30,676 nucleotides of DNA from a virus. The position numbers and the translations under genes are program-made. The stretch covers positions 1 to 30,676 of the IMG/VR virus record IMGVR_UViG_3300044695_003695, one strand, 5' to 3'. Below are positions 24,811-28,958 of the stretch, one piece after another (position 1 is the stretch's first letter; each line of letters opens with the position of its first letter). Under the pieces are notes generated by a model that did not search any database, was not told the DNA's origin, and saw nothing but the letters and a program-made list of their open reading frames with translations.

Positions 24811-25269
24811 TTAATTTGAAAACTGGACAACCGTAACATTACAGTCTGTAAATCCATCATTAATCATTTGTTTAATAGTTGGCCAATGACCACCTGCTAA
24901 ACCTGCTCCAATTTTTGGAAGTCCAATATGTTTACCTTTAAATTCAGAATTCATTTTAGCTACAATACTTTTAAATGCATCATAGTCAAATGGTTTACCT
25001 CCAAATCCATATTGTGTATATGCATTTACAACAGTAAGAGCTTTTCCATTAATATCTAATGTTTTATAATCAATCTTACCTAATTTATCTTTATCTCCAG
25101 AATACTCTGCATTTTCTAATGGAAATAAATCACAATTAAATGCATTTGCCATTTGCGGAGCAATTCCAGCACCCATTGTGCAAAAACAATTGCAACCATG
25201 AGCAATAACATCAAAATAGCCTTCTTTAGCTAGTGTAATCAAATTTCCTTTAATCTCTTTGTAAATCAT
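24811..25269 (-). CDS. Macro-domain protein, Poa1/ADP-ribose-1''-phosphatase-like
   Basis: This 152-residue protein is read from ATG 25269 (MIYKEIKGNL); earlier in-frame ATGs fall inside the upstream gene. Macro fold signals are K-G-N-L, D20-V-I-A-H-G-C-N27, G-A-G-I-A and the phosphate loop L-P-K-I-G-A-G-L-A-G-G-H-W near 117-129. The G-A-G-L-A-G-G-x-W loop and H-G-C-N are like Poa1 and TARG1-type domains that bind or hydrolyse ADP-ribose derivatives. In a phage it could reverse ADP-ribosylation or process tRNA-splicing or NAD products. It overlaps gene 25250-25465 by 20 nt and is the last gene before the repeat-rich gap. Confidence 0.9.
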   Translation of the reverse strand: MIYKEIKGNLITLAKEGYFDVIAHGCNCFCTMGAGIAPQMANAFNCDLFPLENAEYSGDKDKLGKIDYKTLDINGKALTVVNAYTQYGFGGKPFDYDAFKSIVAKMNSEFKGKHIGLPKIGAGLAGGHWPTIKQMINDGFTDCNVTVVQFSN

Positions 25270-25465
25270 TTTTACTTTTTTTATAATCAATAACAAAACC
25301 TAACGCTACTAATATATTCATACCTAATGACATTATAATTTCATGTATATCTTGATAGATTGTAGTCATAAGATGAATATGTCCAATAGACCAAAAAGGA
25401 ATAGCTAAGTTCTGACTAATCCAAACTAAAGTATATTTAATAAAGTGGTTAATCTCCCTCTTCAT
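25250..25465 (-). CDS. Small membrane protein, 71 aa
   Basis: The protein begins MKREINHFIKY. It has a hydrophobic segment at ~12-30 and a second at ~43-61 (I-I-M-S-L-G-M-N-I-L-V-A-L-G-F-V), ending basic (K-K-S-K). ATG overlaps the previous TAA by 1 nt, and it overlaps the macro gene by 20 nt. Shape is compatible with a small two-helix membrane protein such as a holin-like one, but there is no lysis gene beside it, so this is not claimed. Confidence 0.65.
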   Translation of the reverse strand: MKREINHFIKYTLVWISQNLAIPFWSIGHIHLMTTIYQDIHEIIMSLGMNILVALGFVIDYKKSKNDLQRD

Positions 25466-25731
25466 TATTCACCTTTTGCAATCCTTCTGACTTTACCTTT
25501 CCTGAGTTCTTCTTCCCAGAACTCTCTAACTTGTGCCACCTTTGTAATCTCTCTTGGATTTTCTTGTTTAATTCTGAATAGTCTAATTTTCTCTTGTTCT
25601 CTTTCATATTGTTCCCAATTATAGATTTCTAATTCTTTCATTTTCATGATATCTGCAATGGTCATCTCTTCAGGAACTTGACCATCATTTTCATGCATAA
25701 CTTGCATGTAGATTTCTTTCATTCTTCCCAT
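25465..25731 (-). CDS. Charged helical protein, 88 aa
   Basis: Almost entirely charged helix: I-A-D-I-M-K-M-K-E-L-E-I-Y-N-W-E-Q-Y-E-R-E-Q-E-K, then V-R-E-F-W-E-E-E-L-R-K-G-K-V-R-R. May form a coiled coil around residues 25-80. Its start overlaps the HTH gene by 13 nt. No enzymatic motif. Perhaps a partner of the HTH protein; inferred from position only. Confidence 0.65.
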   Translation of the reverse strand: MGRMKEIYMQVMHENDGQVPEEMTIADIMKMKELEIYNWEQYEREQEKIRLFRIKQENPREITKVAQVREFWEEELRKGKVRRIAKGE

Positions 25732-26153
25732 AATTTAATGGATTTTTCAAGTAAATGTTTAATTGTAACTCTAATGTCATCATGACCCATCAAGTTTCTA
25801 ATCTTTAGTAACTTTTTACCTAATTTATCTTCAACAGTTAGTACTACAGTATGCTGTCTGTGAGATTTAATAGAATAAGTTTTACTAAAGTCATAAGGAA
25901 ATAGTTGAGCGTATACATAAACATTTTGTTTATATATAACATCATCTTTAAATTGAATAGGTAATCTTTTGTTATAGTTTACCTTAGTTCTTTTTAAGCC
26001 TGTCAATTTTGCAATAGCATGTTCTGATAGACCAAATTTCTGAGCTAATATGCCAATTAGATAACTTCTCTGATCAACAATTTCTCTTCTACGGGAAGTT
26101 TGATCTAAAAGACTAAGCTCTTTAAGAACCTCTTCTCTTGTGTAATCTTCCAT
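25719..26153 (-). CDS. Helix-turn-helix DNA-binding protein
   Basis: In this 144-residue protein, residues 26-62 (V-D-Q-R-S-Y-L-I-G-I-L-A-Q-K-F-G-L-S-E-H-A-I-A-K-L) run into T-G-L-K-R-T-K-V-N-Y-N. This is a clear HTH, with a turn at G41-L-S and a recognition helix rich in K/R/N. The preceding R-R-x-x-I-V-D-Q-R recalls the basic helix of DnaA domain IV, a weak resemblance. The C-terminal half is beta then helix (H-T-V-V-L-T-V-E-D-K-L-G). Likely a regulator of early phage genes or an origin-binding protein; target sites may be in the nearby 24589-24810 gap. Confidence 0.75.
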   Translation of the reverse strand: MEDYTREEVLKELSLLDQTSRRREIVDQRSYLIGILAQKFGLSEHAIAKLTGLKRTKVNYNKRLPIQFKDDVIYKQNVYVYAQLFPYDFSKTYSIKSHRQHTVVLTVEDKLGKKLLKIRNLMGHDDIRVTIKHLLEKSIKLWEE

Positions 26154-26158
26154 AAAAT

Positions 26159-26437
26159 TTAAATTAATTCTAAGTCTGCTTCTTCTAAGACTTCTTTTTT
26201 TTCTTCTTCAACTTGGTGTAATCTGATATCTAATGGAATAAATCTCTCTGCGTCATAGTACTCATATGGAAAACAGTCGGCAGATATTTGTACTTCTTTA
26301 AGAAGCACACCATACTTGCCGTCCTGCAATCCCATCTTAACTACTTTAATAATAGTATATATCTCACCTTCTTTTACCCATTGTTCAATAGGTACTTTAG
26401 CTGGTTTGTTACTGCTATCAATGCATATCGCCTTCAA
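26159..26437 (-). CDS. Unknown 92-aa protein overlapping clpS-like gene
   Basis: The protein begins MKAICIDSSNKPAKVPIEQWV, then G-E-I-Y-T-I-I-K-V-V and F-I-P-L-D, with an acidic C-terminus (E-E-E-K-K-E-V-L-E-E-A-D-L-E). The N-terminal half is a small beta-barrel outline (I-C-I-D-x-S...K-x-G-E-x-Y-T-I) that I have met in many phage and Bacteroidota proteins without known role. It overlaps the ClpS-like gene by 20 nt, so the two are co-translated and may work together. Confidence 0.7.
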   Translation of the reverse strand: MKAICIDSSNKPAKVPIEQWVKEGEIYTIIKVVKMGLQDGKYGVLLKEVQISADCFPYEYYDAERFIPLDIRLHQVEEEKKEVLEEADLELI

Positions 26438-26672
26438 CTTCTTCCATTTTTACTTTTAAACCTTGTGATTGAAGAAACTCCAGCATTGTTGATATCTGTG
26501 CCCAACAACCATGTTTAATAGTGCATTGACCTGCTAGATCAGCAACTAATGCACATTGTTCTGCTTGTTGTGGGTCATGCCCACAATATTTTATTAGACA
26601 TGCCATAACATAAGCAAAACTATGCTCATCGTCATTATACAGTATAAGTTTGTGATCTTCTGGAAGTTCCAT
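26418..26672 (-). CDS. clpS: ClpS-like protease adaptor
   Basis: This 84-residue protein carries the ClpS core: L-I-L-Y-N13-D14-D15-E-H-S-F, then A-Y-V-M-A-C-L-I-K-Y and H-D-P-Q-Q-A-E-Q-C-A-L-V-A-D45. It lacks the long flexible N-terminal extension of E. coli ClpS (106 aa), which is needed for delivery to ClpA. ClpS brings N-degron substrates to ClpAP/ClpCP. Residue D45 stands where E. coli has H66 (same 32-residue spacing from the NDD Asn), a residue that contacts the substrate's N-terminus, so recognition may be altered. The phage may redirect or block host proteolysis. Confidence 0.85.
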   Translation of the reverse strand: MELPEDHKLILYNDDEHSFAYVMACLIKYCGHDPQQAEQCALVADLAGQCTIKHGCWAQISTMLEFLQSQGLKVKMEEVEGDMH

Positions 26673-26676
26673 GTTG

Positions 26677-27771
26677 CTAATTTAACTTTAAATCATAATT
26701 TCTCCAAACTATCTTATCTTGGTCAAATCCCTCAAGAGCTTCTTTAACCCATTTCTCATCTACTGTATCTTTATAACATAGTATATGCACAATAGCTTTG
26801 TCATCTGGATTAAGACGGAGTAATCTACCAATTCTCTGAGCTGCTTTTCTTTCATTACCATACGCATGCATGATAATGCCTTGTTTTAAATTAGGTATAT
26901 TAATACCCTCATTTAACTGCAGTACACAAGATAGTTTGTCTATATTACCATCTTTAAATAACATTAAGTTATCCTCAGAATCTTTATTACCACTATGGTA
27001 ACTAAATCTGCATAGTCTATCAGCCTGTTCCTGAGTATTGGCAAAAACAATACATTTTGAGTTAATGCTTTCCATTAGCTTCTTTGTGTACTTTTCTTTA
27101 GACTTATACTCCATCATAGCTTTCATACGCATAACTCTAAGCATTTGAGTAGGACCTTGACCTAAATCTATCCTATTACCCCAATACCTATAGTTATCAT
27201 GTTCTGAAGTAATAAAAGACTTGGTCTTCATTTGAACCTGATAGTTTTTACACTTGTCTAATTGAAGCTCATGTACAATAATTTGGTAATCATTAATGAT
27301 ACCATTTTCAATTGCATCATCTGCTTTAAAAGTATAAGTAACAGGACAAAACTGTCCAACCATCATTCCTTTCTCAGAATTTCTGTGTTTAGGTGGAGTC
27401 CCGGTTAAACCCAGGATTCCACCTTTATACACATCAAGAAACACTTTATGAGAATCAAGAAGAGAATGACATTCATCTAAGTACACATAATCATATGCAT
27501 TTGGATCTCTCTTTGGTAATCCAATATATGTAGAAAAAGTAATTCTTTCTAACAAATCTTGTTTACCAAACTTTACAGCATCATCAGACCAAGACTGAAA
27601 GATAGATTTCTTTGGAGCAACTACTAATACATTTTGCATAGCATTAGTATTTCTCTCAATATGTAGTAGGCCAACAAGGGTCTTACCGACCCCTGTGCCT
27701 AATACTACGGAACATCTTTTCTTTCCTTCTGTTGCTTTTAATGCTTGTTCTTGAATCTCTTCTCTTTCCAT
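26677..27771 (-). CDS. SF2 DNA helicase, UvsW/SNF2-like
   Basis: In this 364-residue protein, motif I is G25-T-G-V-G-K-T31, motif II D99-E-C-H102, motif III L-T-G-T-P and motif VI Q312-R-I-G-R-L-L-R, with C-I-V-F-A-N-T-Q-E-Q opening the second domain. Order and short length (two RecA domains, few inserts) fit phage SF2 helicases such as UvsW and the SNF2-like helicase of crAss-like genomes. It would remodel stalled forks or R-loops. The start overlaps the ParB-like stop (TAATG). There is no separate Q-motif domain or zinc finger. Confidence 0.92.
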   Translation of the reverse strand: MEREEIQEQALKATEGKKRCSVVLGTGVGKTLVGLLHIERNTNAMQNVLVVAPKKSIFQSWSDDAVKFGKQDLLERITFSTYIGLPKRDPNAYDYVYLDECHSLLDSHKVFLDVYKGGILGLTGTPPKHRNSEKGMMVGQFCPVTYTFKADDAIENGIINDYQIIVHELQLDKCKNYQVQMKTKSFITSEHDNYRYWGNRIDLGQGPTQMLRVMRMKAMMEYKSKEKYTKKLMESINSKCIVFANTQEQADRLCRFSYHSGNKDSEDNLMLFKDGNIDKLSCVLQLNEGINIPNLKQGIIMHAYGNERKAAQRIGRLLRLNPDDKAIVHILCYKDTVDEKWVKEALEGFDQDKIVWRNYDLKLN

Positions 27772-28535
27772 TATTTAGTTAAATTGAAAATATTTGCGCT
27801 AATGAACTCTTCAGCTGAAGAAGTATCACTCATTGCTTTAATAGTTTTAAGATGCTTATCAAGATTAGCTAATGACTTTTTGTGGTCATAAGTACCCCAT
27901 GCACGCATAAATACTTGTAAAAACTGTTTCTTAACCCAACGGTCAGCTCTACCAATCTTTAAGAAGAAATCATTGAATGCTTTAGCCATTTCCTGTGCTT
28001 CAGGATTAGTAACCTTAAACTTACCTGACTTTAGTAATTGACTTCCAGTAACAACAGAAGAAGTACCACGTGTGCATATTGCTGCCAACATTAGTGGCTC
28101 AATATCATACATATCACGTAACTCAAACAACTGATTATAGTCTGGAATGTACATTTTAAATGCATTAACATAGTTTAACAATGTCCAAGGTTTGGAAGAA
28201 TTGTTAAGCATTGCCATTTTATGTACAAGATCAATCTTATTTGGAGTCTCAATAATAACATATGGAATTTCCAATCCTTCTGCACATAAAGCTTTAAATA
28301 AGTGTTGACCATCAACAACATATAACTTGTTGGTGCCGTCCATAAATTTTACTTGAACACAGATAACTGGTCTAATAACACCCATAGCTCTAATACTAGT
28401 AACCATTTTCTGGATGTGTTTAGAATCAGGAATTCTATTAATACCATCAAGCATGTAAAATTTGTTGTAGTGCTTGCTGAATTTAATTTTCTTCAATAAT
28501 GCTAATGCATCTTTTAAATCATTTTTCATAATCAT
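27771..28535 (-). CDS. ParB/Srx-like domain protein
   Basis: In this 254-residue protein the ParB-like fold appears at 35-90: H-I-Q-K-M-V-T-S-I-R-A-M-G-V-I-R-P-V-I-C-V, then V-V-D75-G-Q-H78-L-F-K-A-L, the counterpart of the GERR/DGHHR box, then I-P-Y-V-I-I. The rest is helical (W-T-L-L-N-Y-V-N-A-F). These domains are CTPases in ParB, but many phage ones are nucleases or unknown. No second ParB HTH was seen. Both ATGs (28535, 28529) are possible. Position beside helicase and HNH genes suggests DNA processing. Confidence 0.8.
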   Translation of the reverse strand: MIMKNDLKDALALLKKIKFSKHYNKFYMLDGINRIPDSKHIQKMVTSIRAMGVIRPVICVQVKFMDGTNKLYVVDGQHLFKALCAEGLEIPYVIIETPNKIDLVHKMAMLNNSSKPWTLLNYVNAFKMYIPDYNQLFELRDMYDIEPLMLAAICTRGTSSVVTGSQLLKSGKFKVTNPEAQEMAKAFNDFFLKIGRADRWVKKQFLQVFMRAWGTYDHKKSLANLDKHLKTIKAMSDTSSAEEFISANIFNLTK

Positions 28536-28547
28536 AATTTTAAGTAA

Positions 28548-28958
28548 TCATTTTAAATAGTTCAGTATTCTAGCCTCTGCAGGATGAGCATGAATCCAAT
28601 CATGACAGTTTCTACATACGCTCAACCATGTAGACTGTACCAAATAGAAAGCATCCCTGTTGGAGCCGGCAAAAGTATGATGCACATCACTTGAGTGAGT
28701 CATACAACCGGCTACAGAGACCTGACATATTGGATTTTCAGTAAGGAATCTTTCTCTTAATTTAAGATACTCAACATCTTTCTTTTTCTTTTTAGAAGAT
28801 ACCTGAGGGATTTTATAATCGTTTGGTTTCTGTGAACTGTTATTATTAATGGCTTTTTGGCAACTCCAGCAATATTTACAGTACTTAAATCCCTCATGGT
28901 TCTTCCATATGATACTCTGTTTACCACAGGCATCACACTCTTTAAGCTTTGACTTCAT
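28548..28958 (-). CDS. HNH endonuclease, NinG-like
   Basis: In this 136-residue protein a zinc knuckle C8-x-x-C11...C27-x-x-C30 leads to a lysine-rich linker (S-S-K-K-K-K-K) and an HNH domain: C78...C85, V-H93-H94-T-F, and L-S-V-C115-R-N-C118-H119-D-W-I-H. This is the NinG/Rap order: zinc finger, basic linker, HNH. Such proteins act on branched DNA (Holliday-junction or D-loop resolution) in phage recombination. It overlaps the next gene in the strand by 17 nt. A general HNH nuclease is the alternative. Confidence 0.85.
   Translation of the reverse strand: MKSKLKECDACGKQSIIWKNHEGFKYCKYCWSCQKAINNNSSQKPNDYKIPQVSSKKKKKDVEYLKLRERFLTENPICQVSVAGCMTHSSDVHHTFAGSNRDAFYLVQSTWLSVCRNCHDWIHAHPAEARILNYLK

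Follow-up and report, generated by a model that had tools for sequence, protein, structure and literature searches.

The minus strand of the window, as we call the whole stretch of DNA analyzed (one IMG/VR virus record of 30,676 bases), encodes an 84-residue ClpS core domain that lacks the N-terminal extension (NTE) and carries aspartate at the position of Escherichia coli His66. Phage ClpS is already known, and the short NTE-less lineage to which this protein belongs is a new variant; in our search of open-licence papers, no ClpS lineage without NTE was described. Bacterial ClpS normally hands proteins over to a degradation machine. The reading that we place first, with a confidence a little short of even, is that the phage protein binds N-degron proteins while host ClpC or ClpA cannot pull on it, so that it would shield or block rather than deliver. 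The gene and its two pocket features are located as follows:

26418 to 26672, minus strand: clpS, the 84-residue ClpS core domain without NTE (open reading frame, Pfam and AlphaFold)
26628 to 26636, minus strand: codons N13-D14-D15, equivalent to E. coli N34-D35-D36, the amino-group-binding motif (alignment)
26538 to 26540, minus strand: codon GAT of Asp45, at the position of E. coli His66 (alignment)

Identity, fold and the missing N-terminal extension

The predicted protein passed the Pfam ClpS model PF02617 (E = 6.6e-13; 48.7 bits, cut-off 23) and scored far below the cut-offs of the NCBIfam ClpS equivalog models. AlphaFold2, given an alignment of 38 relatives, returned a model with a mean pLDDT of 92.5, and the top 38 PDB matches of this model in Foldseek (E < 0.001; TM up to 0.87) were all ClpS, with malarial ClpS (4o2x) among the matches. 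These results bear out the first-pass annotation, made from the sequence alone, which had called the gene a phage-encoded ClpS. The plus strand of the same interval has stops throughout, ruling out a reading on that strand. Alignment with E. coli ClpS, to which identity is about 20%, also upheld the earlier placement of the NDD motif at residues 13 to 15 and of D45 at the His66 position, the two lying 32 residues apart (N13 to D45), as N34 and H66 do in E. coli. The two proteins share the fold; the E. coli protein differs in having His66, a Met40 gatekeeper and a 25-residue NTE. N13 and D14 occupy the Asn34 and Asp35 positions that contact the substrate amino group and are conserved across the family. 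Where ClpS would be expected to have His66, the window protein has Asp45; this histidine is no absolute mark of ClpS, since Asp occurs naturally in other N-recognins and in three host ClpS proteins.

The short N-terminus that had been noted earlier is genuine. Counted from the ATG, 12 residues precede N13 with strand 1 included, and only about six residues stand ahead of the first strand. A longer product is impossible (at most 15 residues before N13), because an in-frame stop stands four codons upstream of the ATG, and only four bases separate this ATG from the end of the helicase gene. The disordered NTE of about 25 residues that characterizes a delivery adaptor is thus absent from the window ClpS. 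Counted from the first Met, the short clade has a median of 12 residues ahead of Asn34; the corresponding medians are 28 for hosts and 26 for the ClpS of huge phages, which are H-type. The short N-terminus is common to all other phage relatives, His and Asp alike. In a maximum-likelihood tree built from 77 columns with column 66 left out, all 114 distinct short sequences grouped together (SH-aLRT 98), with hosts and huge phages falling outside this group. The missing NTE is a stronger feature than the Asp. In E. coli, ClpA pulls on the NTE of ClpS, and the 25-residue NTE is needed for delivery; keeping it from entering the channel suppresses ClpS-assisted degradation, and substrates with an ssrA tag are likewise degraded less when ClpS is present (PMC9663308).

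The phage hosts are presumed, from ClpS resemblance alone, to be Bacteroidota. ClpS of this phylum (Flavobacteriales, Chitinophagaceae and others) shares with the phage proteins the fold, the NDD motif, a gatekeeper Phe, C-x-H and QAEQC, and differs in position 66 and in the longer N-terminus. The ClpS of huge phages (three records of 635 to 642 kb and their IMG/VR relatives) is likewise phage-encoded and close to Bacteroidota ClpS, but it has His, an N-terminal region and a different gene neighborhood. This type comprises loci L047, L048 and L049 (LR745206.1, LR756502.1 and LR756504.1) and L130 to L209; in L047 and L048, clpS comes after a protein that looks HAD-like by eye, the named records being unannotated. 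The text of the Mahaphage paper, on genomes of 634, 636 and 642 kb, does not mention ClpS (PMC7162821).

Aspartate at the His66 position

Relatives were drawn from virus contigs, named phage records and Bacteroidota genomes, and all were aligned to one profile. A single-sequence scan of genome contigs returned no relative of the window ClpS, while an alignment-based scan did recover relatives. Position 66 was Asp in 46/46 window-type sequences compared, encoded by both GAT and GAC, and the median pairwise dN/dS in this family was 0.097 (30 distinct sequences); clpS is under strong purifying selection. Asp45 is therefore not a sequencing error or a product of chance.

The first-pass annotation had made its reading depend on this Asp being uncommon in host Bacteroidota ClpS. 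Counted per locus, some contigs being present under two locus ids, the 190 host loci gave 187 His and 3 Asp, so the idea that Asp is ordinary in hosts was rejected. Asp is rare yet known in cellular ClpS. The three exceptions are L320 (genome G095), L401 (G183) and L411 (G132), whose genomes share their phylum with a Flavobacterium genome. The virus loci gave 147 Asp, 155 His, 1 Glu and 1 Asn, a ratio of Asp to His that is no population estimate because one scan required Asp or Glu at this position; the three huge-phage records were all His. On the best tree the short Asp label needs eight changes, and well-supported branches alone force one; on these 77 columns, repeated exchange of His and Asp within the short clade is likely. 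An Asn member (L439) that adjoins a His sister (L440) and an Asp member (L271) that sits among His relatives agree with such exchange.

Asp at this position has precedents. The ClpS-like N-domain of UBR1/UBR2, part of a ubiquitin ligase, binds type-2 N-degrons, and in human UBR1 its pocket residues are well conserved with ClpS except for D263, whose correspondence to H66 comes from a homology model in a review (PMC8346999); yeast Ubr1 was also a Foldseek match of the window ClpS model. Leptospira ClpS1 (LinClpS1), a bacterial protein with a 22-residue N-domain, has Asp62 where the pocket His would be, as its authors remarked; at pocket positions 38 and 62 it carries His and Ala, as does the window protein (PMC12493166). 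The E. coli D35A/D36A/H66A triple change substantially reduced substrate binding in vitro (PMC9810338) and is silent on Asp at 66 alone. An aspartate here is compatible with contact to the substrate amino group and may preserve that contact; the Asp alone does not imply that binding is lost.

These observations uphold the earlier proposal in part. The identity, the His-to-Asp change and the short N-terminus stand, and they set the phage family apart from Bacteroidota hosts. The further step, from Asp to a new specificity or a decoy, is weak because Asp is natural in UBR1 and Leptospira ClpS1 and because sister phages with the same architecture as the window phage retain His. It is quite possible, with a likelihood somewhat below even, that Asp is functionally neutral, His and Asp being interchangeable in these phages with no new activity, an account compatible with other explanations. 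Consistent with it, His, Asp, Glu and Asn are all found among the close phage relatives of the short clade, L271 has Asp amid His relatives, and UBR1 and Leptospira ClpS1 have Asp as well; against it, Asp is invariant throughout the window-type family and fixed in further large groups. The idea that Asp signals a decaying pocket was rejected, since loss of Asp36 was equally frequent in sequences with His (13/43) and with Asp (21/69).

Pocket conservation and candidate roles

Among the 114 distinct short-clade sequences, Asn34 was present in 113 and Asp35 in 111; neither residue belonged to the patterns used in two of the scans, but some peptide patterns of another search lie near both. Conservation at pocket positions other than 66 exceeded that of the remaining domain, with weighted entropies of 0.77 versus 1.51 (P = 0.013) when three sequences lacking the NDD motif were excluded and 1.04 versus 1.60 (P = 0.047) when they were included. 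The invariance of QAEQC is partly built in, because this motif belonged to the search patterns. The gatekeeper position, Met40 in E. coli, is Phe in the short clade and in Bacteroidota hosts, and most of the short clade has Ala at position 65 in place of Val/Ile. At the position equivalent to E. coli E79, a residue that contacts ClpA (PMC12493166), most hosts and huge phages carry an acidic residue. Most short-clade members do not: the residue is Leu or Met in most H-types and Ala in the window type, and docking to ClpA or ClpC may be altered as a result. At E82 and K84, Bacteroidota hosts show no conservation either.

With the pocket present and the NTE absent, binding without delivery would be expected. 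In the mechanism that we propose, the phage protein has retained both the fold of ClpS and its pocket for the N-terminal residue of N-degron proteins and has lost the disordered NTE, the part on which the host unfoldase would pull so that the adaptor lets go; Asp45 would most likely still touch the alpha-amino group of the substrate, in the way expected of the acidic residue at this position in the UBR1 N-domain. We infer that during infection it binds substrate N-degron proteins and/or docks on the N-domain of host ClpC or ClpA, fails to deliver efficiently and so benefits the phage: docking sites would be occupied and N-degron proteins, phage or host, shielded from ClpCP or ClpAP, making the protein an inhibitor or a specificity switch. 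The earlier suggestion of a decoy that blocks host ClpS is thus plausible through the missing NTE (PMC9663308) and not through the Asp. Two considerations temper the blocking role: the NTE requirement comes from E. coli ClpAP and may not be transferable to Bacteroidota ClpC, and the change at the E79 position means that docking itself may differ. It is doubtful, though worth stating, that a phage lineage with presumed Bacteroidota hosts has made of ClpS an inhibitor of the host's N-degron pathway, lacking the NTE and encoded by a core gene, with a pocket residue that switches between His and Asp during evolution; such an inhibitor would cap N-degron proteins or jam ClpC, a viral counterpart of an anti-adaptor built from the adaptor itself. 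As natural ClpS domains without NTE, in His and Asp versions, these proteins allow degron binding and delivery to be separated. If they block and do not deliver, the bacterial N-degron pathway is a phage target, and phage ClpS could help to identify the natural substrates of Bacteroidota ClpS, for which we found no description.

Delivery by another route is nearly as likely as shielding or blocking. Here the protein would be a working adaptor that brings N-degron proteins to host ClpC or ClpA, perhaps with shifted specificity, by a route that does without a long NTE. Retention of the pocket residues under purifying selection agrees with this, as does the gatekeeper Phe shared with Bacteroidota hosts, and Ala in place of Val/Ile at position 65 could enlarge the pocket. 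A published passage on a jumbo-phage ClpS (AMM43882.1; Iyer et al. 2021, PMC7824862) makes the same guess for another phage protein, proposing that it brings targets to host ClpAP; compared by description only, that protein resembles the window ClpS in being phage-encoded with a host Clp machine as proposed partner, and the passage on it discusses neither an NTE-less lineage nor position 66. Against an adaptor stand the roughly six residues before the first strand, set beside the dependence of E. coli delivery on ClpA pulling a 25-residue NTE (PMC9663308). We rank shielding or blocking first, NTE-independent delivery second and a repurposed ClpS fold, considered with the gene neighborhood below, a clear third.

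The helicase-clpS-X neighborhood

The genes around clpS are arranged as follows:

25465 to 25731, minus strand: conserved protein, no assigned function; syntenic
25719 to 26153, minus strand: conserved protein, no assigned function; syntenic
26159 to 26437, minus strand: gene X, 92 residues, with a TTG start (ATG in most relatives); overlaps the end of clpS and is found in nearly every clpS locus
26418 to 26437, minus strand: 20-base overlap of clpS and X (sequence)
26677 to 27771, minus strand: superfamily 2 helicase (phrog_16), directly upstream, 4 bases from clpS
27771 to 28535, minus strand: ParB-N-like protein; syntenic
28548 to 28958, minus strand: small protein with zinc-ribbon-like and HNH-like motifs by eye and no curated match above cut-off; syntenic

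A homologue of X lies downstream of clpS in 44/45 window-type, 101/102 other Asp and 74/74 His loci, and a helicase homologue lies upstream in 43/45, 94/102 and 71/74, respectively. Both are always on the clpS strand with similar spacing, contig ends near clpS explaining some absences, and the helicase-clpS-X order is kept in D- and H-type members. None of these neighborhood genes was found near clpS in 84 huge-phage-type loci. Each of 14 long contigs of the lineage (86 to 123 kb) encodes one ClpS. clpS belongs to the syntenic core of a large phage lineage and is not a stray acquisition. A ClpP or Clp_N domain was found in none of the 14 contigs, an absence that is provisional because they are unclosed; on these contigs a phage-encoded partner protease or unfoldase was rejected, and any ClpS partner would be the host's. 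The window phage has a replication module of DNA polymerase, primase, DnaB-like helicase, exonuclease and Sak4-like protein, and searches for named phage relatives of the other window genes gave distant matches only.

The fixed neighborhood is one reason to consider that the ClpS fold has been repurposed for a role in phage physiology, for example with the helicase or X, N-degron binding being secondary or lost. We regard this as unlikely. In its favor, Tyr42 and Ala45 on helix 1 are conserved in the short clade and variable in hosts, and the three distinct sequences that lost the NDD motif (L235, L251 and L273) retain the gene between helicase and X, which N-degron binding does not explain; the presence of Asn34 and Asp35 in nearly all members speaks against it, and synteny alone is no proof of a physical partner. 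The NDD-less IMG/VR contigs (L235, L246, L251 and L273; MARLxIIKNxNF...) all keep Asp66, the post-helicase position and the downstream X.

Gene X had no match in Pfam, PHROG, NCBIfam or PADLOC. Its family (85 to 95 residues) has the pattern CI(D/N)xxNKP...FPYEYY...RF with an acidic C-terminus, and its structure is predicted (pLDDT 82.7) to combine a small domain rich in strands with a helix at the C-terminus. Assignment to a known domain was rejected, the SH3-like PDB matches being weak and none having E < 0.1. The recurrent ClpS C-terminal E-x-x-(M/L)-(H/Y) arises because the same bases start X in the overlapping frame, where they encode CI(D/N)xxNKP, and it was rejected as a clade-specific tail. 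The helicase at 26677 to 27771 also matches PADLOC PbeA (6e-29), probably through common helicase similarity and not as part of a defense system. A Macro-domain-like protein (24811 to 25296, minus strand; phrog_335), near clpS in few relatives only, shows weak similarity to the DarG antitoxin (NCBIfam and PADLOC, E about 1e-5).
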